Assembly (NCBI GenBank): GCA_961205875.1
Contig: OY540818.1
Span: 1,782,001-1,846,000 of the forward strand
Direction of reading: 5' to 3'
DNA: 64,000 bases
Source: Sialis fuliginosa
Lineage: Eukaryota; Arthropoda; Insecta; Megaloptera; Sialidae
Positions 32,269 through 64,000 of this stretch are shown one piece after another. Each line of letters opens with the position of its first letter. Position 1 is the first letter of the stretch. Below the pieces are notes generated by a model. The model did not search any database. It was not told the DNA's origin and worked only from the letters and a program-made list of their open reading frames with translations. Made by a program: the position numbers and the translations under genes.

Positions 32269-32478
32269 AAACATAAACATAAACATAAACATAAACATAA
32301 ACATAAACATAAACATAAACATAAACATAAACATAAACATAAACATAAACATAAACATAAACATAAACATAAACATAAACATAAACATAAACATAAACAT
32401 AAACATAAACATAAACATAAACATAAACATAAACATAAACATCAACATAAACTTAAACATAAACATAAACATAAACAT
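32269..32478 (+). repeat. (AAACAT)n left arm of core 1
   Basis: About 35 hexamers with AAACATCAACAT and AAACTT interruptions near the right end. Confidence 0.9.
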
Positions 32479-32723
32479 TATTTTTAATTATAAAAAATAA
32501 TTGAGTCGAAAATCATCATTTGACTCAAATTACAACAAATAATGTTAAATCTAGTCATTTAAACACTAAATTTATGATAAGTATCCAAACTGATGGAATT
32601 GAATTAAAATAATTTGATCCGATTGTTATTGGTACGAATCGAGTCGTTTATTATCAAAATAGACCGATTTAATACAAATCGAGTCGATTTGCAGTTGTTG
32701 TTATATTTAGGTGTATGATTTTG
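32479..32723 (+). repeat. Satellite core 1 (245 bp)
   Basis: A non-hexameric unit from TATTTTTAATTATAAAAAAT to GTGTATGATTTTG. It contains GAGTCGAAAATC...GACTC (an 8 bp hairpin) and two AATCGAGTCG words, one in the near-palindrome AAATCGAGTCGATTT. Differences in this copy: AAATCTAGTC, and TTTATGATAAG where most copies have TTTCCGATAAG. Confidence 0.9.
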
Positions 32724-33370
32724 TTTATGTTTAATGCTTATGTTTATGTTTATGTTTATGTATATGTTTATGTTTATGTTTAAGTTTATGTTTATGTTTA
32801 TGTTTATGTTTATGTTTATGTTTATGTTTAAGTTTATGTTTATGTTTATGTTTATGTTTATGTTTATGTTTATGTTTATGTTTATGTTTATGTTTATGTT
32901 TATGTTTATGTTTATGTTTATGTTTATGTTTATGTTTATGTTTATGTTTATGTTTATGTTTATGTTTATGTTTATGTTTATGTTTATGTTTATGTTTATG
33001 TTTATGTTTATGTTTATGTTTGTTTATGTTTATGTTTATGTTTATGTTTATGTTTATGTTTATGTTTATGTTTATTTTTATGTTTATGTTTATGTTTATG
33101 TTTATGTTTATGTTTATGTTTATGTTTATGTTTATGTTTATGTTTATGTTTATGTTTATGTTTATGTTTATGTTTATGTTTATGTTTATGTTTATGTTTA
33201 TATAAATGTTTACGTTTATGTTTATATTTACGTTTATGTTTAAGTATATGTTTAAATTTATGTTTAAGTTTATGTTTAAATTTATGTTTAAATTTATGTT
33301 TAAATTTATGTTTAAAATGAATGTTTAAATTTATGTTTATGTTTTAATTTATGTCTAAATTTATGATTAA
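32724..33370 (+). repeat. (TTTATG)n right arm of core 1
   Basis: This is the reverse complement of the left-arm hexamer. It has two landmark slips, TGTTTGTTTATG (about 33017) and TTTATTTTTATG (about 33070). It ends with TTTATATAAATGTTTACG (33197) and then TTTAAATTTATG 12-mers. The strand switch back to A-rich is at ATTAAATTC, 33366-33374. Confidence 0.9.
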
Positions 33371-33851
33371 ATTCAAACATAAATTTAAACATAAAATTAA
33401 ACATAAATTTAAACATAAATTTAAACATAAATTTAAACATAAATTTAAACATAAATTTAAACATAAATTAAATAATCAATTTAAACTTAAATTTAAACAT
33501 AAATTTAAACATAAATTTAAACATAAACATAAACATAAATTTAAACCCTAAATTTAAACATAAATTTAAACATAAATTTAAACATAAATTTAAACATAAA
33601 TTTAAACATAAATTTAAACATAAATTTAAACATAAATTAAAACATAAATATAAATTTAAACTTAAATTTAAACATAAATTAAAACATAAATTAAAACATA
33701 AACTTAAACATAAACATAAACATAAACATAAACATAAACATAAACATAAACATAAACATAAACATAAACATAAACATAAACATAAACATAAACATAAACA
33801 TAAACATAAACATAAACATAAACATAAACATAAACATAAACATAAAACATA
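33371..33851 (+). repeat. AAATTTAAACAT block 1 and (AAACAT)n
   Basis: A short A-rich block compared with those of later units. It includes the landmark TAAATAATCAATTTAAAC and a run of AAACAT at 33708-33847, leading into the heptamer array. Confidence 0.9.
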
Positions 33852-34705
33852 AAACATTAAACATTAAACATTAAACATTAAACATTAAACATTAAACATT
33901 AAACATTAAACATTAAACATTAAACATTAAACATTAAACATTAAACATTAAACATTAAACATTAAACATTAAACATTAAACATTAAACATTAAACATTAA
34001 ACATTAAACATTAAACATTAAACATTAAACATTAAACATTAAACATTAAACATTAAACATTAAACATTAAACATTAAACATTAAACATTAAACATTAAAC
34101 ATTAAACATTAAACATTAAACATTAAACATTAAACATTAAACATTAAACATTAAACATTAAACATTAAACATTAAACATTAAACATTAAACATTAAACAT
34201 TAAACATTAAACATTAAACATTAAACATTAAACATTAAACATTAAACATTAAACATTAAACATTAAACATTAAACATTAAACATTAAACATTAAACATTA
34301 AACATTAAACATTAAACATTAAACATTAAACATTAAACATTAAACATTAAACATTAAACATTAAACATTAAACATTAAACATTAAACATTAAACATTAAA
34401 CATTAAACATTAAACATTAAACATTAAACATTAAACATTAAACATTAAACATTAAACATTAAACATTAAACATTAAACATTAAACATTAAACATTAAACA
34501 TTAAACATTAAACATTAAACATTAAACATTAAACATTAAACATTAAACATTAAACATTAAACATTAAACATTAAACATTAAACATTAAACATTAAACATT
34601 AAACATTAAACATTAAACATTAAACATTAAACATTAAACATTAAACATTAAACATTAAACATTAAACATTAAACATTAAACATTAAACATTAAACATTAA
34701 ACATT
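33852..34705 (+). repeat. (AAACATT)122 heptamer array
   Basis: One hundred and twenty-two uninterrupted heptamers, the hexamer plus one T. The frame of the satellite changes with period 7 only here in the window. Confidence 0.95.
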
Positions 34706-34831
34706 AAACATAAACATAAACATAAACATAAACATAAACATAAACATAAACATAAACATAAACATAAACATAAACATAAACATAAACATAAACATAAACA
34801 TAAACATAAACATAAACATAAACATAAACAT
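34706..34831 (+). repeat. (AAACAT)21 left arm of core 2
   Basis: Twenty-one perfect hexamers between the heptamer array and core 2, the shortest left arm in the window. Confidence 0.9.
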
Positions 34832-35075
34832 TATTTTTAATTATAAAAAATAATTGAGTCGAAAATCATCATTTGACTCAAATTACAACAAATAATGTTA
34901 AATCAGTCATTTAAACACTAAATTTCCGATAAGTATCCAAACTGATGGAATTGAATTAAAATAATTTGATCCGATTGTTATTGGTACGAATCGAGTCGTT
35001 TATTATCAAAATAGACCGATTTAATACAAATCGAGTCGATTTGCAGTTGTTGTTATATTTAGGTGTATGATTTTG
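34832..35075 (+). repeat. Satellite core 2 (244 bp)
   Basis: Has AAATCAGTC, one base shorter than core 1 here, and TTTCCGATAAG. Otherwise it matches core 1 closely. Confidence 0.9.
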
Positions 35076-35749
35076 TTTATGTTTAATGCTTATGTTTATG
35101 TTTATGTTTATGTTTATGTTTATGTTTATGTTTAAGTTTATGTTTATGTTTATGTTTATGTTTATGTTTATGTTTATGTTTATGTTTATGTTTATGTTTA
35201 AATTTATGTTTATGTTTATGTTTATGTTTATGTTTATGTTTATGTTTATGTTTATGTTTATGTTTATGTTTATGTTTATGTTTATGTTTATGTTTATGTT
35301 TATGTTTATGTTTATGTTTATGTTTATGTTTATGTTTATGTTTATGTTTATGTTTATGTTTATGTTTATGTTTGTTTATGTTTATGTTTATGTTTATGTT
35401 TATGTTTATGTTTATGTTTATTTTTATGTTTATGTTTATGTTTATGTTTATGTTTATGTTTATGTTTATGTTTATGTTTATGTTTATGTTTATGTTTATG
35501 TTTATGTTTATGTTTATATAAATGTTTACGTTTATGTTTATATTTACGTTTATGTTTAAGTTTATGTTTAAATTTATGTTTAAGTTTATGTTTAAGTTTA
35601 TGTTTTAATTTATGTTTTAATTTATGTTGAAATTTATGTTTAACTTTATGTTTAAATTTATGTTTAAATTTATGTTTAAATTTATGTTTAAAATGAATGT
35701 TTAAATTTATGTTTATGTTTTAATTTATGTCTAAATTTATGATTAAATT
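35076..35749 (+). repeat. (TTTATG)n right arm of core 2
   Basis: Same landmark order as after core 1 (GTTTGTTTATG, TTTATTTTTATG, TATATAAATGTTTACG at 35515), then TTTAAGTTTATG and TTTAAATTTATG 12-mers. The switch point is at 35741-35750. Confidence 0.9.
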
Positions 35750-38238: not shown

Positions 38239-39222
38239 AAACATAAACATAAACATAAACATAAACATAAACATAAACATAAACATAAACATAAACATAA
38301 ACATAAACATAAACATAAACATAAACATAAACATAAACATAAACATAAACATAAACATAAACATAAACATAAACATAAACATAAACATAAACATAAACAT
38401 AAACATAAACATAAACATAAACATAAACATAAACATAAACATAAACATAAACATAAACATAAACATAAACATAAACATAAACATAAACATAAACATAAAC
38501 ATAAACATAAACATAAACATAAACATAAACATAAACATAAACATAAACATAAACATAAACATAAACATAAACATAAACATAAACATAAACATAAACATAA
38601 ACATAAACATAAACATAAACATAAACATAAACATAAACATAAACATAAACATAAACATAAACATAAACATAAACATAAACATAAACATAAACATAAACAT
38701 AAACATAAACATAAACATAAACATAAACATAAACATAAACATAAACATAAACATAAACATAAACATAAACATAAACATAAACATAAACATAAACATAAAC
38801 ATAAACATAAACATAAACATAAACATAAACATAAACATAAACATAAACATAAACATAAACATAAACATAAACATAAACAGAAACAGAAACAGAAACATAA
38901 ACATAAACATAAACATAAACATAAACATAAACATAAACATAAACATAAACATAAACATAAACATAAACATAAACATAAACATAAACATAAACATAAACAT
39001 AAACATAAACATAAACATAAACATAAACATAAACATAAACATAAACATAAACATAAACATAAACATAAACATAAACATAAACATAAACATAAACATAAAC
39101 ATAAACATAAACATAAACATAAACATAAACATAAACATAAACATAAACATAAACATAAACATAAACATAAACATAAACATAAACATAAACATAAACATAA
39201 ACATAAACATAAACATAAACAT
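38239..39222 (+). repeat. (AAACAT)164 left arm of core 3, with three AAACAG units
   Basis: One hundred and sixty-four hexamers. All are AAACAT except three adjacent AAACAG at 38875-38892, a local cluster consistent with a point change spread by slippage. Confidence 0.95.
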
Positions 39223-39466
39223 TATTTTTAATTATAAAAAATAATTGAGTCGAAAATCATCATTTGACTCAAATTACAACAAATAATGTTAAATCAGTCG
39301 TTTAAACACTAAATTTCCGATAAGTATCCAAACTGATGGAATTGAATTAAAATAATTTGATCCGATTGTTATTGGTACGAATCGAGTCGTTTATTATCAA
39401 AATAGACCGATTTAATACAAATCGAGTCGATTTGCAGTTGTTGTTATATTAAGGTGTATGATTTTG
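39223..39466 (+). repeat. Satellite core 3 (244 bp)
   Basis: Copy-specific changes are CAGTCGTTTAAACAC and TTATATTAAGGTG. Confidence 0.9.
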
Positions 39467-40205
39467 TTTATGTTTAATGCTTATGTTTATGTTTATGTTT
39501 ATGTTTATGTTTATGTTTATGTTTATGTTTAAGTTTATGTTTATGTTTATGTTTATGTTTATGTTTATGTTTATGTTTATGTTTAAATTTATGTTTATGT
39601 TTATGTTTATGTTTATGTTTATGTTTATGTTTATGTTTATGTTTATGTTTATGTTTATGTTTATGTTTATGTTTATGTTTATGTTTATGTTTATGTTTAT
39701 GTTTATGTTTATGTTTATGTTTATGTTTATGTTTATGTTTATGTTTATGTTTATGTTTATGTTTATGTTTATGTTTATGTTTATGTTTATGTTTATGTTT
39801 ATGTTTGTTTATGTTTATGTTTATGTTTATGTTTATGTTTATGTTTATGTTTATTTTTATGTTTATGTTTATGTTTATGTTTATGTTTATGTTTATGTTT
39901 ATGTTTATGTTTATGTTTATGTTTATGTTTATGTTTATGTTTATGTTTATGTTTATATAAATGTTTACGTTTATGTTTATATTTACGTTTATGTTTAAGT
40001 TTATGTTTAAATTTATGTTTAAGTTTATGTTTAAGTTTATGTTTTAATTTATGTTTTAATTTATGTTGAAATTTATGTTTAACTTTATGTTTAAATTTAT
40101 GTTTAAATTTATGTTTAAATTTATGTTTAAAATGAATGTTTAAATTTATGTTTATGTTTAAATTTATGTTTATGTTTTAATTTATGTCTAAATTTATGAT
40201 TAAAT
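39467..40205 (+). repeat. (TTTATG)n right arm of core 3
   Basis: Longest right arm apart from the duplicated ones. Landmark slips as after core 2, TATATAAATGTTTACG at 39953, then TTTAAATTTATG 12-mers. The switch is at 40199-40206. Confidence 0.9.
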
Positions 40206-42038
40206 TCAAACTTAAATTTAAACATAAAATTAAACATAAATTTAAACATAAATTTAAACATAAATTTAAACATAAATTTAAACATAAATTAAAAAATCAA
40301 TTTAAACTTAAATTTAAACATAAATTTAAAGATAAATTAAAACATAAATTTAATCATAAATTTAAACATTAATTTAAACATAAATTTAAACATAAATTTA
40401 AACATAAATTTAAACTTAAATTTAAACATAAATTTAAACATAAATTTAAACATAAATTTAAACATAAATTAAAACATAAACTTCAATTTAATCATAAACT
40501 TAAACATAAACTTAAACATAAATTTAAATATAAATTTAAACATAAATTTAAACTTAAATTTAAACATAAATTAAAACATAAATTTAAACATGAATTTAAA
40601 CATAAATTTAAACATAAATTTAAACTTAAATTTAAACATAAATTTAAACATAAATTAAAACATAAATATAAATTTAAACTTAAATTTAAACATAAACTTA
40701 AACATAAATTTAGACATAAATTTAAACATAAAATTAAACATTAATTTAAACATAAATTTAAACTTAAATTTAAACATAAATTTAAACATAAATTTAAACA
40801 TAAATTTAAACATAAAGTTAAACATAAATTTAGACATAAATTTAAACATAAATTTAAACATAAATTTAAACATAAATTTAAACTTAAATTTAAAAATAAA
40901 TTTAAACATAAATTTAAACATAAATTTAAACATAAACTTAAACATAAATTTAGACATAAATTTAAACATAAATTTACAGATAAATTTAAACATAAATTTA
41001 AACTTAAATTTAAACATAAAATTAAACATAAATATAAACATAAATTTAAACATAAATTAAAACATAAACTTCAATTTAAACATAAACTTAAACATAAACT
41101 TAAACATAAATTTAAATATAAATTTAAACATAATATTAAACATAAATTTAAACATAAATTTACATAAATTTAAACATAAGTTTAAACATAAATTAAAACA
41201 TAAATTTAAACATAAATTTAAACATAAATTTAAACATAAATTTAAATATAAATATAAACATAAATTTAAACATAAATTTAAAAATAAATTAAAACATAAA
41301 CATAAATTTAAACATAAATTTAAACATAAATTTAAACATAAATTTAAACATAAATCTAACATAAATTTAAACATAATATTAAACATAAATTTAAACATAA
41401 ATTTACATAAATTTAAACATAAGTTTAAACATAAATTAAAACATAAATTTAAACATAAATTTAAACATAAATTTAAACATAAATTTAAATATAAATATAA
41501 ACATAAATTTAAACATAAATTTAAAAATAAATTAAAACATAAACATAAATTTAAACATAAATTTAAACATAAATTTAAACATAAATTTAAACATAAATCT
41601 AACATAAATTTAAACATAATTTAAAACATAAATTATAACATAAACTTAAACATAAACATAAACACTAAATTAAACCCTAAATTTAAACATAAATTTAAAC
41701 ATAAATTTAAACATAAATTTAAACATAAATTTAAACATAAATTTTACCATAAATTTAAACATAAATTAAAACATAAACTTAAACATAATTTTAAACTTAA
41801 ATTTAAACATAAATTTATACATAAATTTAAACATAAATTTAAACATAAATTAAAACATAAACTTAAATTAAAACATAAATTTAAACATAAATTAAAACAT
41901 AAACTTAAATTAAAACATAAATTTAAACATAAATTTAAACATAAATTTAAACATAAATTTAAACATAAATTAAAACATAAACTTAAACTTGAACATAAAT
42001 TTAAACATAAATTAAAACATAAATTAAAACATAAACTT
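40206..42038 (+). repeat. AAATTTAAACAT block 3, with a 243 bp tandem duplication
   Basis: The variant TAATATTAAACAT at 41131 recurs at 41374 together with the following landmarks (AAATTTACATAAATTT, AAGTTTAAACAT, AAATATAAATATAAACAT), giving two copies of 243 bp. The block ends in AACTTAAACTTGAACAT and a few AAATTAAAACAT units before the next AAACAT array. Confidence 0.85.
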
Positions 42039-42476
42039 AAACATAAACATAAACATAAACATAAACATAAACATAAACATAAACATAAACATAAACATAA
42101 ACATAAACATAAACATAAACATAAACATAAACATAAACATAAACATAAACATAAACATAAACATAAACATAAACATAAACATAAACATAAACATAAACAT
42201 AAACATAAACATAAACATAAACATAAACATAAACATAAACATAAACATAAACATAAACATAAACATAAACATAAACATAAACATAAACATAAACATAAAC
42301 ATAAACATAAACATAAACATAAACATAAACATAAACATAAACATAAACATAAACATAAACATAAACATAAACATAAACATAAACATAAACATAAACATAA
42401 ACATAAACATAAACATAAACATAAACATAAACATAAACATAAACATAAACATAAACAACAACATAAACATAAACAT
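42039..42476 (+). repeat. (AAACAT)n left arm of core 4
   Basis: About 73 hexamer units ending with the interruption AAACAACAACAT shared by the arms of cores 4-8. Confidence 0.9.
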
Positions 42477-42721
42477 TATTTTTAATTGTAAAAAATAATT
42501 GAGTCGAAAATCATCATTTGACTCAAATTACAACAAATAATGTTAAATCTAGTCATTTAAACACTAAATTTCCGATAAGTATCCAAACTGATGGAATTGA
42601 ATTAAAATAATTTGATCCGATTGTTATTGGTATGAATCGAGTCGTTTATTATCAAAATAGACCGATTTAATACAAATCGAGTCGATTTGCAGTTGTTGTT
42701 ATATTTAGGTGTATGATTTTG
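42477..42721 (+). repeat. Satellite core 4 (245 bp)
   Basis: Copy-specific changes are TTTTAATTGTAAAA, AAATCTAGTC (as in core 1) and GGTATGAATCGAGTCG, where other copies have GGTACGAATCG. Confidence 0.9.
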
Positions 42722-43079
42722 TTTATGTTTAATGCTTATGTTTATGTTTATGTTTATGTTTATGTTTATGTTTATGTTTAAGTTTATGTTTATGTTTATG
42801 TTTATGTTTATGTTTAAGTTTATGTTTATGTTTATGTTTATGTTTATGTTTATGTTTATGTTTATGTTTATGTTTATGTTTATGTTTATGTTTATGTTTA
42901 TGTTTATGTTTATGTTTATGTTTATGTTTATGTTTATGTTTCAATTTATGTTTAAATTTATGTTTAACTTTATGTTTAAATTTATGTTTAAATTTATGTT
43001 TAAAATGAATGTTTAAATTTATGTTTATGTTTAAATTTATGTTTATGTTTTAATTTATGTCTAAATTTATGATTAAATT
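42722..43079 (+). repeat. (TTTATG)n right arm of core 4, shortened
   Basis: The only right arm that lacks the TATATAAATGTTTACG landmark. It passes through TTTCAATTTATG to 12-mers at about 42950. Confidence 0.9.
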
Positions 43080-46138: not shown

Positions 46139-46576
46139 AAACATAAACATAAACATAAACATAAACATAAACATAAACATAAACATAAACATAAACATAA
46201 ACATAAACATAAACATAAACATAAACATAAACATAAACATAAACATAAACATAAACATAAACATAAACATAAACATAAACATAAACATAAACATAAACAT
46301 AAACATAAACATAAACATAAACATAAACATAAACATAAACATAAACATAAACATAAACATAAACATAAACATAAACATAAACATAAACATAAACATAAAC
46401 ATAAACATAAACATAAACATAAACATAAACATAAACATAAACATAAACATAAACATAAACATAAACATAAACATAAACATAAACATAAACATAAACATAA
46501 ACATAAACATAAACATAAACATAAACATAAACATAAACATAAACATAAACATAAACAACAACATAAACATAAACAT
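46139..46576 (+). repeat. (AAACAT)n left arm of core 5
   Basis: About 73 hexamers with the AAACAACAACAT interruption before the core. Confidence 0.9.
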
Positions 46577-46820
46577 TATTTTTAATTATAAAAAATAATT
46601 GAGTCGAAAATCATCATTTGACTCAAATTACAACAAATAATGTTAAATCAGTCATTTAAACACTAAATTTCCGATAAGTATCCAAACTGATGGAATTGAA
46701 TTAAAATAATTTGATCCGATTGTTATTGGTACGAATCGAGTCGTTTATTATCAAAATAGACCGATTTAATACAAATCGAGTCGATTTGCAGTTGTTGTTA
46801 TATTTAGGTGTATGATTTTG
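46577..46820 (+). repeat. Satellite core 5 (244 bp)
   Basis: Matches the majority core sequence (AAATCAGTC, TTTCCGATAAG, GGTACGAATCG). Confidence 0.9.
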
Positions 46821-47393
46821 TTTATGTTTAATGCTTATGTTTATGTTTATGTTTATGTTTATGTTTATGTTTAAGTTTATGTTTAATGTTTATGTTTATG
46901 TTTATGTTTATGTTTATGTTTATGTTTAAATTTATGTTTATGTTTATGTTTATGTTTATGTTTATGTTTATGTTTATGTTTATGTTTATGTTTATGTTTA
47001 TGTTTATGTTTATGTTTATGTTTGTTTATGTTTATGTTTATGTTTATGTTTATGTTTATGTTTATGTTTATTTTTATGTTTATGTTTATGTTTATGTTTA
47101 TGTTTATGTTTATGTTTATGTTTATGTTACTGTTTATGTTTATGTTTATGTTTATGTTTATGTTTATGTTTATGTTTATGTTTATGTTTATATAAATGTT
47201 TACGTTTATGTTTATATTTACGTTTATGTTTAAGTTTATGTTTAAATTTATGTTTAAGTTTATGTTTAAGTTTATGTTTAAATTTATGTTTAAATTTATG
47301 TTTAAATTTATGTTTAAAATGAATGTTTAAATTTATGTTTATGTTTAAATTTATGTTTATGTTTTAATTTATGTCTAAATTTATGATTAAATT
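46821..47393 (+). repeat. (TTTATG)n right arm of core 5
   Basis: Contains TTTAATGTTTATG (46881) and a single TTACTG variant at 47128. TATATAAATGTTTACG is at 47190 and the switch point at 47387-47394. Confidence 0.9.
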
Positions 47394-50681: not shown

Positions 50682-51083
50682 AAACATAAACATAAACATA
50701 AACATAAACATAAACATAAACATAAACATAAACATAAACATAAACATAAACATAAACATAAACATAAACATAAACATAAACATAAACATAAACATAAACA
50801 TAAACATAAACATAAACATAAACATAAACATAAACATAAACATAAACATAAACATAAACATAAACATAAACATAAACATAAACATAAACATAAACATAAA
50901 CATAAACATAAACATAAACATAAACATAAACATAAACATAAACATAAACATAAACATAAACATAAACATAAACATAAACATAAACATAAACATAAACATA
51001 AACATAAACATAAACATAAACATAAACATAAACATAAACATAAACATAAACATAAACATAAACAACAACATAAACATAAACAT
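50682..51083 (+). repeat. (AAACAT)n left arm of core 6
   Basis: 67 hexamer-length units, including the AAACAACAACAT interruption just before the core. Confidence 0.9.
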
Positions 51084-51327
51084 TATTTTTAATTATAAAA
51101 AATAATTGAGTCGAAAATCATCATTTGACTCAAATTACAACAAATAATGTTAAATCAGTCATTTAAACACTAAATTTCCGATAAGTATCCAAACTGATGG
51201 AATTGAATTAAAATAATTTGATCCGATTGTTATTGGTACGAATCGAGTCGTTTATTATCAAAATAGACCGATTTAATACAAATCGAGTCGATTTGCAGTT
51301 GTTGTTATATTTAGGTGTATGATTTTG
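51084..51327 (+). repeat. Satellite core 6 (244 bp)
   Basis: Same majority sequence as core 5. Confidence 0.9.
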
Positions 51328-51935
51328 TTTATGTTTAATGCTTATGTTTATGTTTATGTTTATGTTTATGTTTATGTTTATGTTTAAGTTTATGTTTAAT
51401 GTTTATGTTTATGTTTATGTTTATGTTTATGTTTATGTTTAAATTTATGTTTATGTTTATGTTTATGTTTATGTTTATGTTTATGTTTATGTTTATGTTT
51501 ATGTTTATGTTTATGTTTATGTTTATGTTTATGTTTATGTTTATGTTTATGTTTATGTTTATGTTTGTTTATGTTTATGTTTATGTTTATGTTTATGTTT
51601 ATGTTTATGTTTATTTTTATGTTTATGTTTATGTTTATGTTTATGTTTATGTTTATGTTTATGTTTATGTTTATGTTTATGTTTATGTTTATGTTTATGT
51701 TTATGTTTATGTTTATGTTTATGTTTATGTTTATATAAATGTTTACGTTTATGTTTATATTTACGTTTATGTTTAAGTTTATGTTTAAATTTATGTTTAA
51801 GTTTATGTTTAAGTTTATGTTTAAATTTATGTTTAAATTTATGTTTAAATTTATGTTTAAAATGAATGTTTAAATTTATGTTTATGTTTAAATTTATGTT
51901 TATGTTTTAATTTATGTCTAAATTTATGATTAAAT
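51328..51935 (+). repeat. (TTTATG)n right arm of core 6
   Basis: Same TTTAATGTTTATG landmark as after core 5, without the TTACTG variant. TATATAAATGTTTACG is at 51732. Confidence 0.9.
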
Positions 51936-53984
51936 TCAAACATAAATTTAAACATAAAATTAAACATAAATTTAAACATAAATTTAAATATAAATTTAAA
52001 CATAAATTTAAACATAAATTAAAAAATCAATTTAAACTTAAATTTAAACATAAATTTAAACATAAATTTAAACATAAACATAAACATAAATTTAAACCCT
52101 AAATTTAAACATAAATTTAAACATAAATTTAAACCAAAATTTAAACATAAATTTAAACATAAATTAAAACATAAATATAAATTTAAACTTAAATTTAAAC
52201 ATAAACTTAAACATAAATTTAGACATAAATTTAAACATAAAATTAAACATAAATTTAAACATAAATTTAAACTTAAATTTAAACATAAATTTAAACATAA
52301 ATTTAAACATAAATTTAAACATAAAGTTAAACATAAATTTAGACATAAATTTAAACATAAATTTAAACATAAATTTAAACTTAAATTTAAACATAAATTT
52401 AAACATAAATTTAAACATAAATTTAAACATAAACTTAAACATAAATTTAGACATAAATTTAAACATAAATTTAAACATAAATTTAAACATAAATTTAAAC
52501 TTAAATTTTAACATTAATTTAAACATAAATTTAAACATAAATTAAAACATAAACTCTAATTTAAACATAAACTTAAACATAAACTTAAACATAAATTTAA
52601 ATATAAATTTTAACATAAATTAAAACATAAACTTCAATTTAAACATAAACTTAAACATAAACTTAAACATAAATTAAAACATAAATTTAAACATAAATTT
52701 AAACATAAATTTAAACATAAATTTAAATATAAATATGAACATAAATTTAAACATAAATTTAAAAATAAATTAAAACATAAACATAAATTTAAACATAAAT
52801 TAAAACATAAACATAAATTTAAACATAAATTTAAACATAAATTTAAACATAAATTTAAACATAAATCTAACATAAATTTAAACATAAATTAAAACATAAA
52901 TTATAACATAAACTTAAACATAAACATAAACACTAATTTAAACCCTAAATTTAAACATAAATTTAAACATAAATTTAAACATAAATTTAAACATAAATTT
53001 AAACATAAATTTAACCATAAATTTAAACATAAATTAAAACATAAACTTAAACATAATTTTAAACTTAAATTTAAACATAAATTTAAACATAAATTTAAAC
53101 ATAATTTTAAACATAAATTTAAACATAAATTTAAACATAAATTTAAACATAAATTAAAACATAAACTTAAATTAAAACATAAATTTAAACATAAATTTAA
53201 ACATAAATTTAAACATAAATTTAAACATAAACTTCAATTTAAACATAAACTTAAACATAAACTTAAACATAAATTTAAATATAAATTTAAACATAAATTA
53301 AAACATAAACTTCAATTTAAACATAAACTTAAACATAAACTTAAACATAAATTAAAACATAAATTTAAACATAAATTTAAACATAAATTTAAACATAAAT
53401 TTAAATATAAATATAAACATAAATTTAAACATAAATTTAAAAATAAATTAAAACATAAACATAAATTTAAACATAAATTTAAACATAAATTTAAACATAA
53501 ATTTAAACATAAATTTAAACATAAATCTAACATAAATTTAAACATAAATTAAAACATGAATTATAACATAAACTTAAACATAAACATAAACACTAATTTA
53601 AACCCTAAATTTAAACATAAATTTAAACATAAATTTAAACATAAATTTAAACATAAATTTAAACATAAATTTAACCATAAATTTAAACATAAATTAAAAC
53701 ATAAACTTAAACATAATTTTAAACTTAAATTTAAACATAAATTTAAACATAAATTTAAACATAATTTTAAACATAAATTTAAACATAAATTTAAACATAA
53801 ATTTAAACATAAATTTAAACATAAATTAAAACATAAACTTAAATTAAAACATAAATTTAAACATAAATTTAAACATAAATTTAAACATAAATTTAAACAT
53901 AAATTTAAACATAAATTAAAACATAAACTTAAACTTGAACATAAATTTAAACATAAATTAAAACATAAATTAAAACATAAACTT
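51936..53984 (+). repeat. AAATTTAAACAT block 6
   Basis: Contains a repeated module around AAACTTCAATTTAAACAT (52632 and 53310, about 680 bp apart), ending each time in AACACTAATTTAAACCCTAAA. Confidence 0.85.
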
Positions 53985-54386
53985 AAACATAAACATAAAC
54001 ATAAACATAAACATAAACATAAACATAAACATAAACATAAACATAAACATAAACATAAACATAAACATAAACATAAACATAAACTTAAACATAAACATAA
54101 ACATAAACATAAACATAAACATAAACATAAACATAAACATAAACATAAACATAAACATAAACATAAACATAAACATAAACATAAACATAAACATAAACAT
54201 AAACATAAACATAAACATAAACATAAACATAAACATAAACATAAACATAAACATAAACATAAACATAAACATAAACATAAACATAAACATAAACATAAAC
54301 ATAAACATAAACATAAACATAAACATAAACATAAACATAAACATAAACATAAACATAAACATAAACAACAACATAAACATAAACAT
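53985..54386 (+). repeat. (AAACAT)n left arm of core 7
   Basis: One AAACTT unit at about 54082 and the AAACAACAACAT interruption near the end. Confidence 0.9.
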
Positions 54387-54630
54387 TATTTTTAATTATA
54401 AAAAATAATTGAGTCGAAAATCATCATTTGACTCAAATTACAACAAATAATGTTAAATCAGTCATTTAAACACTAAATTTCCGATAAGTATCCAAACTGA
54501 TGGAATTGAATTAAAATAATTTGATCCGATTGTTATTGGTACGAATCGAGTCGTTTATTATCAAAATAGACCGATTTAATACAAATCGAGTCGATTTGCA
54601 GTTGTTGTTATATTTAGGTGTATGATTTTG
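54387..54630 (+). repeat. Satellite core 7 (244 bp)
   Basis: Majority core sequence. Confidence 0.9.
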
Positions 54631-55408
54631 TTTATGTTTAATGCTTATGTTTATGTTTATGTTTATGTTTATGTTTATGTTTATGTTTAAGTTTATGTTT
54701 ATGTTTATGTTTATGTTTATGTTTATGTTTATGTTTATGTTTATGTTTATGTTTATGTTTATGTTTATGTTTATGTTTATGTTTATGTTTATGTTTATGT
54801 TTATGTTTATGTTTATGTTTATGTTTATGTTTATGTTTATGTTTATGTTTATGTTTATGTTTATTTTTATGTTTATGTTTATGTTTATGTTTATGTTTAT
54901 GTTTATGTTTATGTTTATGTTTATGTTTATGTTTATGTTTATGTTTATGTTTATGTTTATGTTTATGTTTATGTTTATGTTTATGTTTATATAAATGTTT
55001 ACGTTTATGTTTATATTTACGTTTATGTTTAAGTTTATGTTTAAATTTATGTTTAAGTTTATGTTTATGTTTATGTTTATTTTTATGTTTATGTTTATGT
55101 TTATGTTTATGTTTATGTTTATGTTTATGTTTATGTTTATGTTTATGTTTATGTTTATGTTTATGTTTATGTTTATGTTTATGTTTATGTTTATATAAAT
55201 GTTTACGTTTATGTTTATATTTACGTTTATGTTTAAGTTTATATTTAAATTTATGTTTAAGTTTATGTTTAAGTTTATGTTTAAGTTTATGTTTAAATTT
55301 ATGTTTAAATTTATGTTTAAATTTATGTTTAAAATGAATGTTTAAATTTATGTTTATGTATAAATTTATGTTTATGTTTTAATTTATGTCTAAATTTATG
55401 ATTAAATT
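54631..55408 (+). repeat. (TTTATG)n right arm of core 7, internally duplicated
   Basis: The landmark TATATAAATGTTTACG occurs twice (54989 and 55192), so a piece of about 200 bp of this arm is repeated. The same duplication is present after core 8. Confidence 0.9.
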
Positions 55409-57497
55409 CAAACATAAATTTAAACATAAAATTAAACATAAATTTAAACATAAATTTAAACATAAATTTAAACATAAATTTAAACATAAATTAAAAAATC
55501 AATTTAAACTTAAATTTAAACATAAATTTAAACATAAATTTAAACATAAACATAAACATAAATTTAAACCCTAAATTTAAACATAAATTTAAACATAAAT
55601 TTAAACATAAATTTAAACATAAATTTAAACATAAATTAAAACATAAATATAAATTTAAACTTAAATTTAAACATAAACTTAAACATAAATTTAGACATAA
55701 ATTTAAACATAAAATTAAACATAAATGAAACATAAATTTAAACTTAAATTTAAACATAAATTTAAACATAAATTTAAACATAAATTTAAACATAAAGTTA
55801 AACATAAATTTAGACATAAATTTAAACATAAATTTAAACATAAATTTAAACTTAAATTTAAACATAAATTTAAACATAAATTTAAACATAAATTTAAACA
55901 TAAACTTAAACATAAATTTAGACATAAATTTAAACATAAATTTAAACATAAATTTAAACATAAATTTAAACTTAAATTTAAACATTAATTTAAACATAAA
56001 TTTAAACATAAATTTAAACATAAATTAAAACATAAACTTCAATTTAAACATAAACTTAAACATAAACTTAAACATAAATTTAAATATAAATTTAAACATA
56101 AATTAAAACATAAACTTCAATTTAAACATAAACTTAAACATAAACTTAAACATAAATTAAAACATAAATTTAAACATAAATTTAAACATAAATTTAAACA
56201 TAAATTTAAATATAAATATAAACATAAATTTAAACATAAATTTAAAAATAAATTAAAACATAAACATAAATTTAAACATAAATTTAAACATAAATTTAAA
56301 CATAAATTTAAACATAAATTTAAACATAAATTTAAACATAAATCTAACATAAATTTAAACATAAATTAAAACATAAATTATAACATAAACTTAAACATAA
56401 ACATAAACACTAATTTAAACCCTAAATTTAAACATAAATTTAAACATAAATTTAAACATAAATTTAAACATAAATTTAAACATAAATTTAACCATAAATT
56501 TAAACATAAATTAAAACATTAACTTAAACATAATTTTAAACTTAAATTTAAACATAAATTTAAACATAAATTTAAACATAATTTTAAACATAAAGTTAAA
56601 CATAAATTTAAACATAAATTTAAACATAAATTTAAACATAAATTAAAACATAAACTTAAATTAAAACATAAATTTAAACATAAATTTAAACATAAATTTA
56701 AACATAAATTTAAACATAAACTTCAATTTAAACATAAACTTAAACATAAACTTAAACATAAATTTAAATATAAATTTAAACATAAATTAAAACATAAACT
56801 TCAATTTAAACATAAACTTAAACATAAACTTAAACATAAATTAAAACATAAATTTAAACATAAATTTAAACATAAATTTAAACATAAATTTAAATATAAA
56901 TATAAACATAAATTTAAACATAAATTTAAAAATAAATTAAAACATAAACATAAATTTAAACATAAATTTAAACATAAATTTAAACATAAATTTAAACATA
57001 AATTTAAACATAAATCTAACATAAATTTAAACATAAATTAAAACATAAATTATAACATAAACTTAAACATAAACATAAACACTAATTTAAACCCTAAATT
57101 TAAACATAAATTTAAACATAAATTTAAACATAAATTTAAACATAAATTTAAACATAAATTTAACCATAAATTTAAACATAAATTAAAACATAAACTTAAA
57201 CATAATTTTAAACTTAAATTTAAACATAAATTTAAACATAAATTTAAACATAATTTTAAACATAAATTTAAACATAAATTTAAACATAAATTTAAACATA
57301 AATTTAAACATAAATTAAAACATAAACTTAAATTAAAACATAAATTTAAACATAAATTTAAACATAAATTTAAACATAAATTTAAACATAAATTTAAACA
57401 TAAATTTAAACATAAATTTAAACATAAATTAAAACATAAACTTAAACTTGAACATAAATTTAAACATAAATTAAAACATAAATTAAAACATAAACTT
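55409..57497 (+). repeat. AAATTTAAACAT block 7
   Basis: Follows block 6 in landmark order, including two AAACTTCAATTTAAACAT modules (56115 and 56799, 684 bp apart). Confidence 0.85.
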
Positions 57498-57899
57498 AAA
57501 CATAAACATAAACATAAACATAAACATAAACATAAACATAAACATAAACATAAACATAAACATAAACATAAACATAAACATAAACATAAACATAAACATA
57601 AACATAAACATAAACATAAACTTAAACATAAACATAAACATAAACATAAACATAAACATAAACATAAACATAAACATAAACATAAACATAAACATAAACA
57701 TAAACATAAACATAAACATAAACATAAACATAAACATAAACATAAACATAAACATAAACATAAACATAAACATAAACATAAACATAAACATAAACATAAA
57801 CATAAACATAAACATAAACATAAACATAAACATAAACATAAACATAAACATAAACATAAACATAAACATAAACATAAACAACAACATAAACATAAACAT
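57498..57899 (+). repeat. (AAACAT)n left arm of core 8
   Basis: 402 bp long, like the left arm of core 7, with a single AAACTT and the AAACAACAACAT interruption. Confidence 0.9.
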
Positions 57900-57935
57900 T
57901 ATTTTTAATTATAAAAAATAATTGAGTCGAAAATC
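57900..57935 (+). repeat. Satellite core 8, left part
   Basis: The first 36 bases of the core. It is interrupted after TCGAAAATC, which is the left target duplication of the inserted element. Confidence 0.9.
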
Positions 57936-57944
57936 GATTTGCGG

Positions 57945-58303
57945 TCAATTTATCGTAAACAGTTTATCGTAAAACAGTTTATCGTAAACAGTTCATCGTA
58001 AAACAATTTACCGAACGAACAATTTATCGTATGAACAATTTACCGTAAGAACAATTTATCGTAAAACAATTTATCGTAAGAACAATTTATCGTATGGACA
58101 ATTTACCGTAAGAACAATTTATCGTAAAACAATTTATCGTAAGAACAATTTATCGTATGGACAATTTACCGTATGAACAATTTATCGTAAAACAATTTAT
58201 CGTAGAACAATTTATCGTAAAACAATTTATCGTAAAGCAATTTATCGTAAAGCAATTTATCGTAAAACAATTTATCGTAAAACAATTTATCGTAAAACAA
58301 TTT
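57945..58303 (+). repeat. Subterminal ACAATTTATCGTAAA minisatellite, left arm
   Basis: About two dozen units of 13-16 bp sharing CAATTTATCGTA, with ACCGTAAG and CGTATGG variants. The open frame that reads Glu-Gln-Phe-Ile-Val-Lys repeats here is a by-product. Confidence 0.9.
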
Positions 58304-60847
58304 ATGTATTATTATTGTCACAGACTCCACTGGACTTTCTTATACGTATTAAGGTCAAATCAATTATGAAAATATTATATAATATATTATTATATAGAAA
58401 CCTTGTTTTCTAATTTTATCAATTAAAAAAAATGTACAGATGCGTATTAAGTTAGATTTTAGGCCCAAATTATTAAAATAATAAATACACATTACATATA
58501 AATAATATATATAAACCTTATTTATTATTTAATCAATTAAAAAAAAAATGTACAGAAGCGTATTGAGTAATTATTGAGACCCGTGTATTAAACTAATTAA
58601 TAAACTCACAACTCGCCCCCTGTCACAGATGGAGGGTTGTAACTGGTTTCATTGGATCCGGCGGGAAAAATACTATAGGATTCTAGGGGAATGGGGGGCA
58701 AAACAACCCTCTATCTAGCACAGGAGTCGAGATATTTACGATTTTCTGTAATGAATACCATAAGTAGCGAAACAGAAAAATTCAATATTTACAATAAATA
58801 CTGCATATAAACATAAGATATTATTATTTAATTTAATAGAATGAAAAAAAAAGTTCAGGCATGTATTAAGTGATATTTTAGGCCCGTATTGTTAAAACAA
58901 CAAATACACATATGTATATAGAAACCTTGTTTATAATTTAGTCAGTTAAAAATAATTGTACAGAAGCGTATTGAGTGATTTTTGAGGCCCGTGTATTAAA
59001 CTAATTAAAAAACTCACAAATCGCCCCCTATCACAGATGGAGGATTGTAACTGGTCTCATTGGATCCGGCGGTAAAAATACTATAGGATTCTAGGGGAAT
59101 GGGGGGCAAAACAACCCTCTATCTAGCACAGGAGTCGAGATATTTACGATTTTCTGTAATGAATACCATAAGTAGCGAAACAGAAAAATTCAATATTTAC
59201 AATAAATATTGCATAGAAACATAAGATATTATTATTTAATTTAATAGAATGAAAAAAAAGTTCAGGCATGTATTAAGTGATATTTTAGGTCTGTATTGTT
59301 AAAATAATAAACATACATATATAGAAACCTTGTTTATAATTTAGTCAATTAAAAATAATTGTACAGAAGCGTATTGAGTGATTTTTGAGTCCCGTGTATT
59401 AAACTAATTAAAAACAACCCCCTTACTCGTATAGGTGACGTGTTAATTACGATTTTCTATAATGAATAAATAGTGAAAAAGAAACAAAATCAATATCCAC
59501 CTCTTACACAATAATAATATACCTTAGATATTATTACTAAATTAAATAAATTTTAAAAATGTACAGATGTATATCAAGTGATAATATAGGCCTGTATTCT
59601 TAAAATAACAAATTCACGTATACCTACTATTTAGAAACATTGAATAATATTTAATCGATTTGCGTTCAATTTATGGTAAACAGTTCAATGTAAAACAATG
59701 TTATATTACATTCTTTCATCATGTGACAGAGGCGAGTTTATTAATTAGTTTAATACACGGGCCTCAAAAATCACTCAATATGGTTCTGTACAATTATTTT
59801 TAATTAACTAAATTATAAACAAGGTTTCTATTTAATATATGTGTATTTGTTGTTTTAACAATACGGGCCTAAAATATCACTTAATACATGCCTGAACTTT
59901 TTTTTTCATTCTATTAAATTAAATAATAATATCTTATGTTTATATGCAGTATTTATTGTAAATATTGAATTTTTCTGTTTCGCTACTTATGGTATTCATT
60001 ACAGAAAATCGTAAATATCTCGACTCCTGTGCTAGATAGAGGGTTGTTTTGCCCCCCATTCCCCTAGAATCCTATAGTATTTTTCCCGCCGGATCCAATG
60101 AGACCAGTTACAACCCTCCATTTGTGACAGGGGGCGATTTGTGAGTTTTTTAATTAGTTTAATACACGGGCCTCAAAAATCACTCAATACGCTTCTGTAC
60201 AATTATTTTTAACTGACTAAATTATAAACAAGGTTTCTATATACATATGTGTATTTGTTGTTTTAACAATACGGGCCTAAAATATCACTTAATACATGCC
60301 TGAACTTTTTATTTCATTCTATTAAATTAAATAATAATATCTTATGTTTATATGCAGTATTTATTGTAAATATTGAATTTTTCTGTTTCGCTACTTATGG
60401 TATTCATTACAGAAAATCGTAAATATCTCGACTCCTGTGCTAGATAGAGGGTTGTTTTGCCCCCCATTCCCCTAGAATCCTATAGTATTTTTCCCGCCGG
60501 ATCCAATGAGACCAGTTACAACCCTCCATCTGTGACAGGGGGCGAGTTGTGAGTTTATTAATTAGTTTAATACACGGGTCTCAATAATTACTCAATACGC
60601 TTCTGTACATTTTTTTTTTAATTGATTAAATAATAAATAAGGTTTATATATATTATTTATATGTAATGTGTATTTATTATTTTAATAATTTGGGCCTAAA
60701 ATCTAACTTAATACGCATCTGTACATTTTTTTTAATTGATAAAATTAGAAAACAAGGTTTCTATATAATAATATATTATATAATATTTTCATAATTGATT
60801 TGACCTTAATACGTATAAGAAAGTCCAGTGGAGTCTGTGACAGTAAT

Positions 60848-61200
60848 AATACATAAATTGTTTTACGATAAATTGTTTTACGATAAATTGCTCTACGATA
60901 AATTGTTTTACGATAAATTGTTCTACGATAAATTGTTTTACGATAAATTGTTTTACGATAAATTGTTCATACGGTAAATTGTCCATACGATAAATTGTTC
61001 TTACGATAAATTGTTTTACGATAAATTGTTCTTACGGTAAATTGTCCATACGATAAATTGTTCTTACGATAAATTGTTTTACGATAAATTGTTCTTACGG
61101 TAAATTGTTCATACGATAAATTGTTCGTTCGGTAAATTGTTTTACGATAAACTGTTGTACGATAAACTGTTTACGATAAACTGTTTACGATAAATTGACC
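60848..61200 (-). repeat. Subterminal minisatellite, right arm
   Basis: Reverse complement of the left array (TACGATAAATTGTTT units), with the same variant order read inward and small differences in copy number. Confidence 0.9.
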
Positions 61201-61207
61201 GGAACCC

Positions 61208-61424
61208 TCGAAAATCATCATTTGACTCAAATTACAACAAATAATGTTAAATCAGTCATTTAAACACTAAATTTCCGATAAGTATCCAAACTGATGGAAT
61301 TGAATTAAAATAATTTGATCCGATTGTTATTGGTACGAATCGAGTCGTTTATTATCAAAATAGACCGATTTAATACAAATCGAGTCGATTTGCAGTTGTT
61401 GTTATATTTAGGTGTATGATTTTG
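61208..61424 (+). repeat. Satellite core 8, right part
   Basis: Resumes at the duplicated TCGAAAATC and continues to GTATGATTTTG. It is otherwise identical in layout to core 7. Confidence 0.9.
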
Positions 61425-62059
61425 TTTATGTTTAATGCTTATGTTTATGTTTATGTTTATGTTTATGTTTATGTTTAAGTTTATGTTTATGTTTATGTTT
61501 ATGTTTATGTTTATGTTTATGTTTATGTTTATGTTTATGTTTATGTTTATGTTTATGTTTATGTTTATGTTTATGTTTATGTTTATGTTTATGTTTATGT
61601 TTATGTTTATGTTTATTTTTATGTTTATGTTTATGTTTATGTTTATGTTTATGTTTATGTTTATGTTTATGTTTATGTTTATGTTTATGTTTATATAAAT
61701 GTTTACGTTTATGTTTATATTTACGTTTATGTTTAAGTTTATGTTTAAATTTATGTTTAAGTTTATGTTTATGTTTATGTTTATTTTTATGTTTATGTTT
61801 ATGTTTATGTTTATGTTTATGTTTATGTTTATGTTTATGTTTATGTTTATGTTTATGTTTATGTTTATGTTTATGTTTATGTTTATATAAATGTTTACGT
61901 TTATGTTTATATTTACGTTTATGTTTAAGTTTATGTTTAAATTTATGTTTAAGTTTATGTTTAAGTTTATGTTTAAATTTATGTTTAAATTTATGTTTAA
62001 ATTTATGTTTAAAATGAATGTTTAAATTTATGTTTATGTCTAAATTTATGATTAAATTC
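61425..62059 (+). repeat. (TTTATG)n right arm of core 8, internally duplicated
   Basis: TATATAAATGTTTACG occurs at 61693 and 61886, as after core 7, showing that units 7 and 8 derive from one another. Confidence 0.9.
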
Positions 62060-64000
62060 AAACATAAATTTAAACATAAAATTAAACATAAATTTAAACA
62101 TAAATTTAAACATAAATTTAAACATAAATTTAAACATAAATTAAAAAATCAATTTAAACTTAAATTTAAACATAAATTTAAACATAAATTTAAACATAAA
62201 CATAAACATAAATTTAAACCCTAAATTTAAACATAAATTTAAACATAAATTTAAACATAAATTTAAACATAAATTTAAACATAAATTAAAACATAAATAT
62301 AAATTTAAACTTAAATTTAAACATAAACTTAAACATAAATTTAGTCATAAATTTAAACATAAAATTAAACATAAATTTAAACATAAATTTAAACTTAAAT
62401 TTAAACATAAATTTAAACATAAATTTAAACATAAATTTAAACATAAAGTTAAACATAAATTTAGACATAAATTTAAACATAAATTTAAACATAAATTTAA
62501 ACTTAAATTTAAACATAAATTTAAACATAAATTTAAACATAAATTTAAACATAAACTTAAACATAAATTTAGACATAAATTTAAACATAAATTTAAACAT
62601 AAATTTAAACATAAATTTAAACTTAAATTTAAACATTAATTTAAACATAAATTTAAACATAAATTTAAACATAAATTAAAACATAAACTTCAATTTAAAC
62701 ATAAACTTAAACACAAACTTAAACATAAATTTAAATATAAATTTAAACATAAATTAAAACATAAACTTCAATTTAAACATAAACTTAAACATAAACTTAA
62801 ACATAAATTAAAACATAAATTTAAACATAAATTTAAACATAAATTTAAACATAAATTTAAATATAAATATAAACATAAATTTAAACATAAATTTAAAAAT
62901 AAATTAAAACATAAACATAAATTTAAACATAAATTTAAACATAAATTTAAACATAAATTTAAACATAAATTTAAACATAAATCTAACATAAATTTAAACA
63001 TAAATTAAAACATAAATTATAACATAAACTTAAACATAAACATAAACACTAATTTAAACCCTAAATTTAAACATAAATTTAAACATAAATTTAAACATAA
63101 ATTTAAACATAAATTTAAACATAAATTTAACCATAAATTTAAACATAAATTAAAACATTAACTTAAACATAATTTTAAACTTAAATTTAAACATAAATTT
63201 AAACATAAATTTAAACATAATTTTAAACATAAATTTAAACATAAATTTAAACATAAATTTAAACATAAATTCAAACATAAATTAAAACATAAACTTAAAT
63301 TAAAACATAAATTTAAACATAAATTTAAACATAAATTTAAACATAAACTTCAATTTAAACATAAACTTAAACATAAACTTAAACATAAATTTAAATATAA
63401 ATTTAAACATAAATTAAAACATAAACTTCAATTTAAACATAAACTTAAACATAAACTTAAACATAAATTAAAACATAAATTTAAACATAAATTTAAACAT
63501 AAATTAAAACATAAATTTAAATATAAATATAAACATAAATTTAAACATAAATTTAAAAATAAATTAAAACATAAACATAAATTTAAACATAAATTTAAAC
63601 ATAAATTTAAACATAAATTTAAACATAAACATAAACATAAATTTAAACCCTAAATTTAAACATAAATTTAAACATAAATTTAAACATAAATTTAAACATA
63701 AATTTAAACATAAATTAAAACATAAATATAAATTTAAACTTAAATTTAAACATAAACTTAAACATAAATTTAGACATAAATTTAAACATAAAATTAAACA
63801 TAAATTTAAACATAAATTTAAACTTAAATTTAAACATAAATTTAAACATAAATTTAAACATAAATTTAAACATAAAGTTAAACATAAATTTAGACATAAA
63901 TTTAAACATAAATTTAAACATAAATTTAAACTTAAATTTAAACATAAATTTAAACATAAATTTAAACATAAATTTAAACATAAACTTAAACATAAATTTA
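62060..64000 (+). repeat. AAATTTAAACAT block 8 (runs off the window)
   Basis: Same landmark order as block 7 (AAACTTCAATTTAAACAT at 62766 and 63426). Near 63629 it jumps to an AAACATAAACATAAATTTAAACCC segment equivalent to the one at 62205, so the block repeats itself from there to the window edge. Confidence 0.85.

Follow-up and report, generated by a model that had tools for sequence, protein, structure and literature searches.

Macro-dyad symmetry is known from satellites of Tribolium madens (TmSat1 and TmSat2), and macro-dyads are stated, in the portion of the source available, to be documented exclusively in Tribolium (PMC13081366). The monomers of these dyads derive from a ~110-bp unit, and the dyads extend for up to tens of kb (PMC13081366). 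In the available portion of PMC13427858, the term 'macro-dyad' occurs only within the reference list. In Drosophila virilis, the foldback-derived satellite Tetris/TIR-220 carries tandem repeats in its inverted arms; the available text gives 8-9-bp target duplications for complete Tetris copies, and 9-10 bp for rearranged copies (PMC4079207). The Tm1 Mutator/Foldback family from root-knot nematodes, as far as its available description goes, combines asymmetric 7-bp ends, a 3-bp motif, 13-15-bp tandem repeats in the inverted arms, and a 9-bp target duplication (PMC3169594).

The window analyzed here, a stretch of 64,000 nucleotides from chromosome C10 of Sialis fuliginosa, contains a satellite that has several properties in common with the Tribolium macro-dyads, including orientation-switching arrays, conserved inversion sites at which inverted subarrays could form hairpins, the presence of one satellite as a cassette within another, and the occupation of large chromosomal regions (PMC13081366). 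The original prediction stated that it knew of no described satellite with this layout; the macro-dyad satellites of Tribolium are a published case of satellites with this symmetry (PMC13081366). Querying the literature with the repeat strings matched no paper. The dyads of this window consist of 6/12-bp simple repeats placed around an asymmetric core that is related to a 169-bp satellite, and they are set apart from those of Tribolium by unit length rather than by alignment. The backbone is a strand-asymmetric simple satellite, composed of AAACAT hexamers and the 12-mers AAATTTAAACAT/AAACTTAAACAT. There are eight cores, seven of them intact and one split, and each has AAACAT hexamers as its left flank and ATGTTT hexamers as its right, after which the sequence returns to A-rich 12-mers. 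The features, in window coordinates, are as follows:

27405..29878, + strand: A-rich 12-mer and hexamer lead array at the left edge of the block, coreless (TRF, sequence)
29876..31348, + strand: non-satellite segment repeating 25932ff at an offset of 3944, including ~287-bp repeats (TRF, sequence; first 40 bases identical)
31349..32478, + strand: second copy of the A-rich lead array, with AAACAT hexamers at its end abutting core 1 (TRF, sequence)
32471..32726, + strand: core 1 (blastn)
32727..33373, - strand: T-rich arm 1, ATGTTT hexamers then 12-mers, up to the strand switch (sequence)
33694..34833, + strand: left arm of core 2, a local heptamer variant (AAACATT)n, then hexamers (TRF, sequence)
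34824..35078, + strand: core 2 (blastn)
35079..35749, - strand: T-rich arm 2 (sequence)
39215..39469, + strand: core 3 (blastn)
39470..40206, - strand: T-rich arm 3 (sequence)
42469..42724, + strand: core 4 (blastn)
42725..43079, - strand: T-rich arm 4, with a slightly different junction near 43080 (sequence)
46569..46823, + strand: core 5 (blastn)
46824..47393, - strand: T-rich arm 5 (sequence)
51076..51330, + strand: core 6 (blastn)
51331..51936, - strand: T-rich arm 6 (sequence)
54379..54633, + strand: core 7 (blastn)
54634..55408, - strand: T-rich arm 7, internally part-duplicated (sequence)
57892..57935, + strand: left piece of core 8, with the 9-bp target duplication (57927-57935) at its end (blastn)
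57936..61207, no strand assigned: foldback transposon within core 8 (sequence)
61208..61427, + strand: right piece of core 8, with the 9-bp target duplication (61208-61216) at its start (blastn)
61428..62058, - strand: T-rich arm 8 (sequence)
62059..64000, + strand: A-rich 12-mer backbone leaving the window, the next core lying at C10:1847930 (TRF, sequence)

The layout of inverted hexamers around eight cores, followed by a switch to A-rich 12-mers, had been proposed in the original prediction, and was confirmed by sequence and blastn. The proposed near-identity of the intact cores was also borne out (cores 2-7 are 98.0-100% identical to core 1 by blastn), and the spacing of the seven intact cores, 2353-4507 bp, agrees with the proposed unit length of 2.4-4.5 kb. 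A hairpin hundreds of bases long had been anticipated as well. The left and right flanks of the seven intact cores were found to be 84-93% complementary over 378-795 alignment columns, and one core with its arms, folded as single-stranded DNA, gave a predicted energy of -199.8 kcal/mol, compared to -64 +/- 5.4 kcal/mol for 20 shuffles; on this prediction, each unit has the potential to form a giant hairpin. The feature had been placed at 32269..64000, and its presence there stood, but its start did not, since the array begins at 27405 and the block continues well past the right end of the window. The array edge is a tandem duplication, in which the sequence from 25932 onward appears again from 29876, and the A-rich lead appears again at 31349. 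Within 32269-64000, AAACAT occurs 1786 times (shuffle mean 66) and ATGTTT 627 times (shuffle mean 13; 50 single-base shuffles). A recurrent switch sequence is present at the arm ends, with the strand switching back at 33359, 35735, 40192, 47379, 51922, 55394, and 62044. Cores, arms, and switches bear variants specific to single units, and T-rich arms that lack a core are also present in the C10 array. No known RNA family reached its gathering score within the window.

A search of the full assembly placed the core beyond this contig, confinement to which had been named in the original prediction as a sign of misassembly: a 50-mer from the core, at 3 or fewer mismatches, gave 646 matches (296 forward, 350 reverse), compared to 0 for a control pattern. 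The sequence (AAACAT)5 had 186,355 exact matches in the genome (control 0), and the 100 matches listed all fell on C1, beginning at 32.112 Mb. In sampling that took in C1 and C4-C14, cores were seen on eight of the 14 chromosomes (C1 and C7-C13), and the array was absent from eight small samples on C4-C6. The blocks lie ~1-2.3 Mb from one chromosome end on seven chromosomes, and at 32.1-32.7 Mb on C1:

C10: 1.81 to 2.2 Mb (continuous reading to 2.046 Mb, array samples to 2.2 Mb)
C9: 2.115 to 2.3 Mb
C13: 1.96-2.15 Mb
C1: 32.11-32.70 Mb
C11: 1.12-1.41 Mb
C12: samples at 1.9 and 2.2 Mb
C7 and C8: 2.2 Mb (1.8-2 kb of sequence each)

In the stretches sampled, a single block was seen per chromosome on these eight chromosomes, in addition to a 169-bp array on C14. 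All core matches listed fell inside blocks (best 40 of 1455, 100 of 646, and best 40 of 1558), and in the search with the C11 core, the best 40 of 1558 candidates were all on C11. Core identity within groups was 99.5% for C10 (+), 98.0% for C10 (-), 99.2% for C1, and 99.0% for C9, whereas between groups it was 94-98% among C1, C9, and C10, 86-90% between these and C11, and 72-74% between C7/C8 and the rest. The core subfamilies are therefore chromosome-specific, copies within a chromosome being more alike than copies between chromosomes, which is the pattern of concerted evolution. Three of the segments between cores in the C10 + run (9, 11, and 13) were 99.8-100% identical over 2.7 kb, values that are inflated by the cheap gaps used in aligning simple repeats. 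The blocks are satellite DNA, in the form of long head-to-tail arrays of related units, and the proposal of a higher-order satellite was upheld by near-identical, kb-long units and a family present on many chromosomes.

A conventional, nucleosome-length relative of the core was found on C14, where a head-to-tail 167-169-bp satellite is present in 8.3 copies at 3.10 Mb (TRF). This satellite aligned to the C11 core with 78% identity over 155 columns (score 171, compared to at most 74 in 200 shuffles). The tail of the core aligned to the following monomer with scores that were reached by 0 of 300 shuffles for C9, C11, and C8, and by 6 of 300 for C12; a core of 1.5 monomers should also contain an internal repeat, and this was weak (reached by 2 of 300 shuffles for C9 and for C11). 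As judged from these alignments, the ~245-bp core is homologous to the 169-bp satellite of C14, and appears to span roughly 1.5-2 of its monomers. Hexamers were absent from 1.4 kb of the C14 array, whereas the eight hexamer chromosomes showed related sequence only as the ~1.5-2-monomer core inside inverted hexamer arms.

Farther along C10 the core is reversed, while the position of the outer arm is unchanged. Across 264 kb of C10, 45 occurrences of the outer-arm mark TTTAAAATG[A/T]ATGTTTAAA were counted on the + strand, and none of its mirror; the mark accompanies cores of either orientation, and the same outer-arm end was found again on C1 and C9. We infer that the core flipped through recombination between its arms. 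Independent insertions in both directions would also account for two core orientations, but would leave the shared outer-arm mark unexplained. The arrangement is that of a macro-dyad, with inverted subarrays at recurrent inversion points: A-rich sequence lies to the left and T-rich sequence to the right of 50 of the 51 testable cores, the sole exception being a core split by a transposon. The palindrome AAATCGAGTCGATTT is the longest invariant run across eight representative cores, with modest conservation statistics (permutation p 0.04; 2 of 65 windows). An exact copy is present in 44 of 47 aligned cores and missing from 1.4 kb of the C14 array.

The explanation that we favor, with reasonable confidence, is that the window captures the edge of a large, probably (peri)centromeric satellite block, in which a simple-repeat backbone carries repeated core cassettes between opposed hexamer runs. 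The core would be a relic of ~1.5-2 monomers of the nucleosome-length 169-bp satellite, embedded in the backbone. Unequal exchange or break-induced copying, with the cassette as its unit, may have spread the cassettes inside each block, slippage may have altered the lengths of the hexamer runs, and the inverted arms may pair or recombine, which would flip the core. The blocks would mark the pericentromere or centromere. A centromere-proximal location is consistent with the single block seen per sampled chromosome, and the function is one that we infer; if the species were holocentric, the centromere reading would fall.

There is some chance, though a minor one, that this is a commonplace heterochromatic satellite uninvolved in centromere function, whose inverted arms arose incidentally by template switching and hitch-hiked in amplification. 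All the features described can be produced in the absence of selection, by slippage, unequal exchange, and inversion; coreless T-rich arms exist, and the palindrome is neither exact in all aligned cores nor found in the C14 sample. However, the layout is common to eight chromosomes despite core divergence to ~72%, the inverted arms were kept at nearly every testable core, and the palindrome is the longest unchanged run of the representative cores, modest as those statistics are. A more specific proposal, which we regard as doubtful, is that giant AT hairpin cassettes, with 1.5-2 monomers at the tip, took the place of an ancestral 169-bp centromere satellite on most chromosomes, C14 retaining the plain array; the cassettes may keep a putative palindromic protein-binding site, AAATCGAGTCGATTT, at the loop (CENP-B-box-like by analogy), with the core flipping via arm recombination. 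The lack of the exact palindrome in 3 of 47 aligned cores, and in the 1.4 kb of C14, makes this proposal slightly less likely.

The eighth core is interrupted by a 3272-bp transposon with 15-bp tandem repeats at either end, inverted arms of ~1.47 kb (96.8% identity), and a 9-bp target duplication. Relatives of this element are scattered over 13 of the 14 chromosomes, and it is a dispersed, recently active foldback transposon. Its 9-bp duplication, ends, and arm repeats are those of a Tm1-type Mutator/foldback element, and its plan matches that of Tm1 in each of the properties given above, the two being compared by description rather than by sequence alignment (PMC3169594). The original prediction had overlooked this transposon, as well as the kinship of the core to the 169-bp satellite and the inversion of the core along the array.

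A genuine foldback element in the same array raises the question of whether the core and its hexamer arms are themselves a foldback transposon that gave rise to a satellite by amplification, its inverted arms being made of tandem repeats and its loop non-coding. The plan is alike, with composite inverted arms of variable length around a loop, and Tetris provides a precedent, in which tandem repeats in inverted arms and satellite amplification are combined, as here (PMC4079207). Unlike Tetris, the hexamer cassette has no termini or target duplications that could be defined by eye in the stretches examined on C10, C1, C9, and C11 (PMC4079207). Every core seen, or among the matches listed, lies inside a block, in contrast to the dispersed relatives of the nested transposon. 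Because the outer-arm mark is one-sided (45 to 0), no listed copy lies outside the blocks, and a 169-bp tandem satellite shares homology with the core, a foldback origin of the hexamer cassette was judged quite unlikely.

That the inverted arms are an assembly artefact of chimeric reads or collapsed repeats is highly improbable: such simple repeats are hard to assemble, and the 400 bases sampled at 2.2 Mb of C9 are Ns, but the variants are unit-specific in cores, arms, and switches, eight chromosomes share the layout, with sequences that have diverged and junctions that differ, and 10 of the 14 chromosome starts carry telomere repeats (3 read N, and 1 is neither), which suggests that the assembly is good. 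These telomeres are TTAGG-type, unlike the TCAGG repeat of Tribolium, and so speak against that genus as the source. A lepidopteran source was likewise discarded, since the mitochondrial tRNA order is I-Q-M, and that of ditrysian Lepidoptera is M-I-Q.

The favored reading, a probably (peri)centromeric block of core cassettes in a simple-repeat backbone, bears on the role of dyad symmetry versus primary sequence at centromeres, which is described as an open question in the available text of two sources (PMC9070824; PMC13081366). If the blocks are centromeric, macro-dyad satellites would extend beyond the one genus in which the available text of the 2026 paper documents them (PMC13081366). One genome would then hold a plain 169-bp array on C14 beside hairpin cassettes, with pieces of a related sequence, on eight other chromosomes, and core orientation would vary inside one array, so that CENP-A profiling could put the role of dyad symmetry to a direct test. 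Should the blocks prove non-centromeric, they still offer a sequence-level view of how a canonical satellite may end up inside a simple-repeat satellite.

The cores, the ~245-bp conserved sequences that centre the satellite units, were found between oppositely oriented hexamers as predicted from the sequence, seven of them intact and 98-100% alike, the eighth split into two pieces. To the left of each core lie AAACAT hexamers; to its right come ATGTTT hexamers, then 12-mers, and finally a return to A-rich sequence. Hexamer counts exceeded those of single-base shuffles by over an order of magnitude. The original prediction had begun the satellite stretch at 32269, which proved too late; the true array start is at 27405, past a tandem duplication of the array edge. 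Two features of this stretch are:

25932-32268: array edge, duplicated in tandem at an offset of 3944, including ~287-bp repeats and the A-rich lead array
57936-61207: foldback transposon, 3272 bp, inside the split (eighth) core, with a 9-bp target duplication

Landmarks recur in a shared order along the right arms of all eight units, which vary in hexamer number. In the + run of C10 (the contig carrying the window, at 1782001-1846000; + and - denote core orientation), inter-core segments 9, 11, and 13 (3 of 14; 2738-2774 bp) were mutually 99.8-100% alike, figures for other segments being inflated in this comparison, which used cheap gaps and in which segment 3 spans a core missed by the core pattern. 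The near-identity of these three segments, together with the variable hexamer number, indicates duplication of whole cassettes (core plus arms) and changes in the length of the hexamer runs, for which slippage is the presumed cause.

The nested foldback transposon has asymmetric 7-bp ends followed by a GGT motif and 15-bp tandem repeats, and its inverted arms measure ~1.47 kb (96.8%), a plan common to it and Tm1 (PMC3169594). A search with the transposon middle, scoring 40 of 1052 candidates, gave 40 places at 99-100%, window copy included, spread over 13 of the 14 chromosomes and both strands, plus one place at 71%. The element looks mobile and recent, and probably belongs to a recently active family; the behaviour of the core differs markedly from that of this transposon. 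Besides the satellite block, the window contains a large inverted repeat (7623-10895 and 13901-17170; ~3.27-kb arms, 99.8% identical, ~3-kb spacer) with 232-bp tandem repeats in its arms, BEL/Pao retroelement frames adjoining its right end (17593-21740; Pfam DUF1759, Peptidase_A17, Integrase_H2C2), and a linker-histone H1 reading frame (3767-4468; PF00538, E 5e-30).

The 392-Mb genome consists of 14 chromosome-size contigs (C1-C14) and six small contigs, among them one with the sequence of a mitochondrion; CCTAA telomere repeats were present at 10 of the 14 chromosome starts and N at three (C1, C11, C14), with neither on C10. Confinement of the core to one contig had been raised as a sign of an assembly artefact, and it was not found: a 50-mer from the core, allowing up to 3 mismatches, gave 646 genome matches, compared to 0 for a control pattern, and cores were observed on eight chromosomes (C1, C7, C8, C9, C10, C11, C12, and C13). 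The 50-mer places come from 100 of the 646 matches, with at least one exact C1 match outside these; the C7 and C8 evidence spans 1.8-2 kb each, and the other arrays were mostly sampled rather than read end to end. Exact matches to (AAACAT)5 numbered 186,355 (control, 0), and all of the 100 listed lay on C1, the first at 32.112 Mb. No array was present in eight small samples of C4, C5, and C6 (C2 and C3 lay outside the sampling), and 0 of 16 C14 samples held hexamer arrays. Samples of C1 at 32.30, 32.45, and 32.56 Mb had a T-rich backbone and the sample at 32.70 Mb an A-rich one, indicating that the strand flips at block scale also; the change within the block, at 32.56-32.70 Mb, is a possible macro-inversion centre.

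Across 264 kb of C10, the cores form two runs: 14 intact + cores and a split one at 1.8145-1.8705 Mb, and beyond them 28 - cores at 1.874-2.042 Mb. The array was still present in samples at 2.08, 2.115, 2.15, and 2.20 Mb, and absent from the sample at 2.3 Mb. Throughout the 264 kb, the backbone is mainly A-rich on the + strand beneath both + and - cores, and several T-rich arms lack a core. A sequence mark at the outer arm end occurred 45 times on one strand, under cores of either orientation, and its mirrored form 0 times; the outer-arm end recurs on C1 and C9. Marks near the core go with the core itself. We infer an inversion of the core, between its own arms, in one lineage, followed by amplification. 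Among 51 testable cores located by their palindrome (one C12 core, too close to the edge, was left out), 50 had the A-rich arm on the left and the T-rich arm on the right and 0 the reverse, the sole exception being the transposon-split core; the C13 core follows the common arrangement. Since this arrangement is its own reverse complement, the count shows that inverted arms are kept, not that core direction is fixed.

Of 49 core hits, 47 were aligned, leaving aside the split core's left piece and a - core that lacked the end pattern; the split core's right piece had been filtered out beforehand. The alignment gave mean identities of 99.5% within the C10 + cores, 98.0% within C10 -, 99.2% within C1, and 99.0% within C9, and of 94-98% between the C10, C1, and C9 groups. 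The C11 core was 86-90% identical to these, and a search with it, scoring 40 of 1558 candidates, placed 40/40 on C11 at 1.12-1.41 Mb. C12 cores lack the first ~60 bp, are directly adjoined by 12-mers, and match the others at 83% by local alignment with gaps or 92-93% over ungapped columns; over such columns, C7/C8 cores were 72-74% identical to other cores and 93% to each other. The longest invariant run over eight representative cores, the 16-bp AAATCGAGTCGATTTG, coincides with the best core palindrome, which measures 15-17 bp, or 23 bp on C7/C8. A run of this length had p 0.04 by column permutation, and ungapped windows of 15 columns were fully invariant in 2 of 65 cases. The exact palindrome 15-mer occurred in 44 of the 47 aligned C1, C9, and C10 cores and nowhere in 1.4 kb of a C14 array described below; from these alignments, conservation of the palindrome is suggestive only.

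On C14 (3099501-3100900), a head-to-tail satellite with a 167-169 bp unit was found, 8.3 copies in 1400 bp, with no hexamers within that stretch. Aligned with the C11 core over 155 columns, it was 78% identical and scored 171, compared to at most 74 in 200 shuffles. The remainder of the core matched the next monomer, with a score that none of 300 shuffles reached for C9, C11, or C8 and that 6 of 300 reached for C12. C7/C8 cores align across about two C14 monomers at 60%. The internal repeat expected of a 1.5-monomer core was weak (reached by 2 of 300 shuffles). Because the array matches the core and the following monomer matches its remainder, the core, on sequence grounds, most likely represents what remains of ~1.5-2 monomers from a satellite of nucleosome length.

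From this anatomy, cassettes would multiply through unequal exchange or break-induced copying, slippage would set arm length, and the inverted arms would permit hairpins and core flipping; the predicted hairpin of one cassette had -200 kcal/mol, compared to -64 for shuffles. The original prediction knew of no satellite with this layout. Macro-dyad symmetry satellites are known in Tribolium, and only there according to a 2026 paper (PMC13081366), and a Drosophila virilis satellite is described as having grown out of foldback arms (PMC4079207). A limited survey found no description of the combination seen here, in which inverted arms of simple repeats enclose a 169-bp satellite piece on eight chromosomes and a plain 169-bp array lies on another, and a literature search with the repeat strings themselves returned no paper. 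Within the scope of that survey, the combination appears new. The blocks most likely represent a (peri)centromeric satellite and, if the species is monocentric, may have a centromere function.
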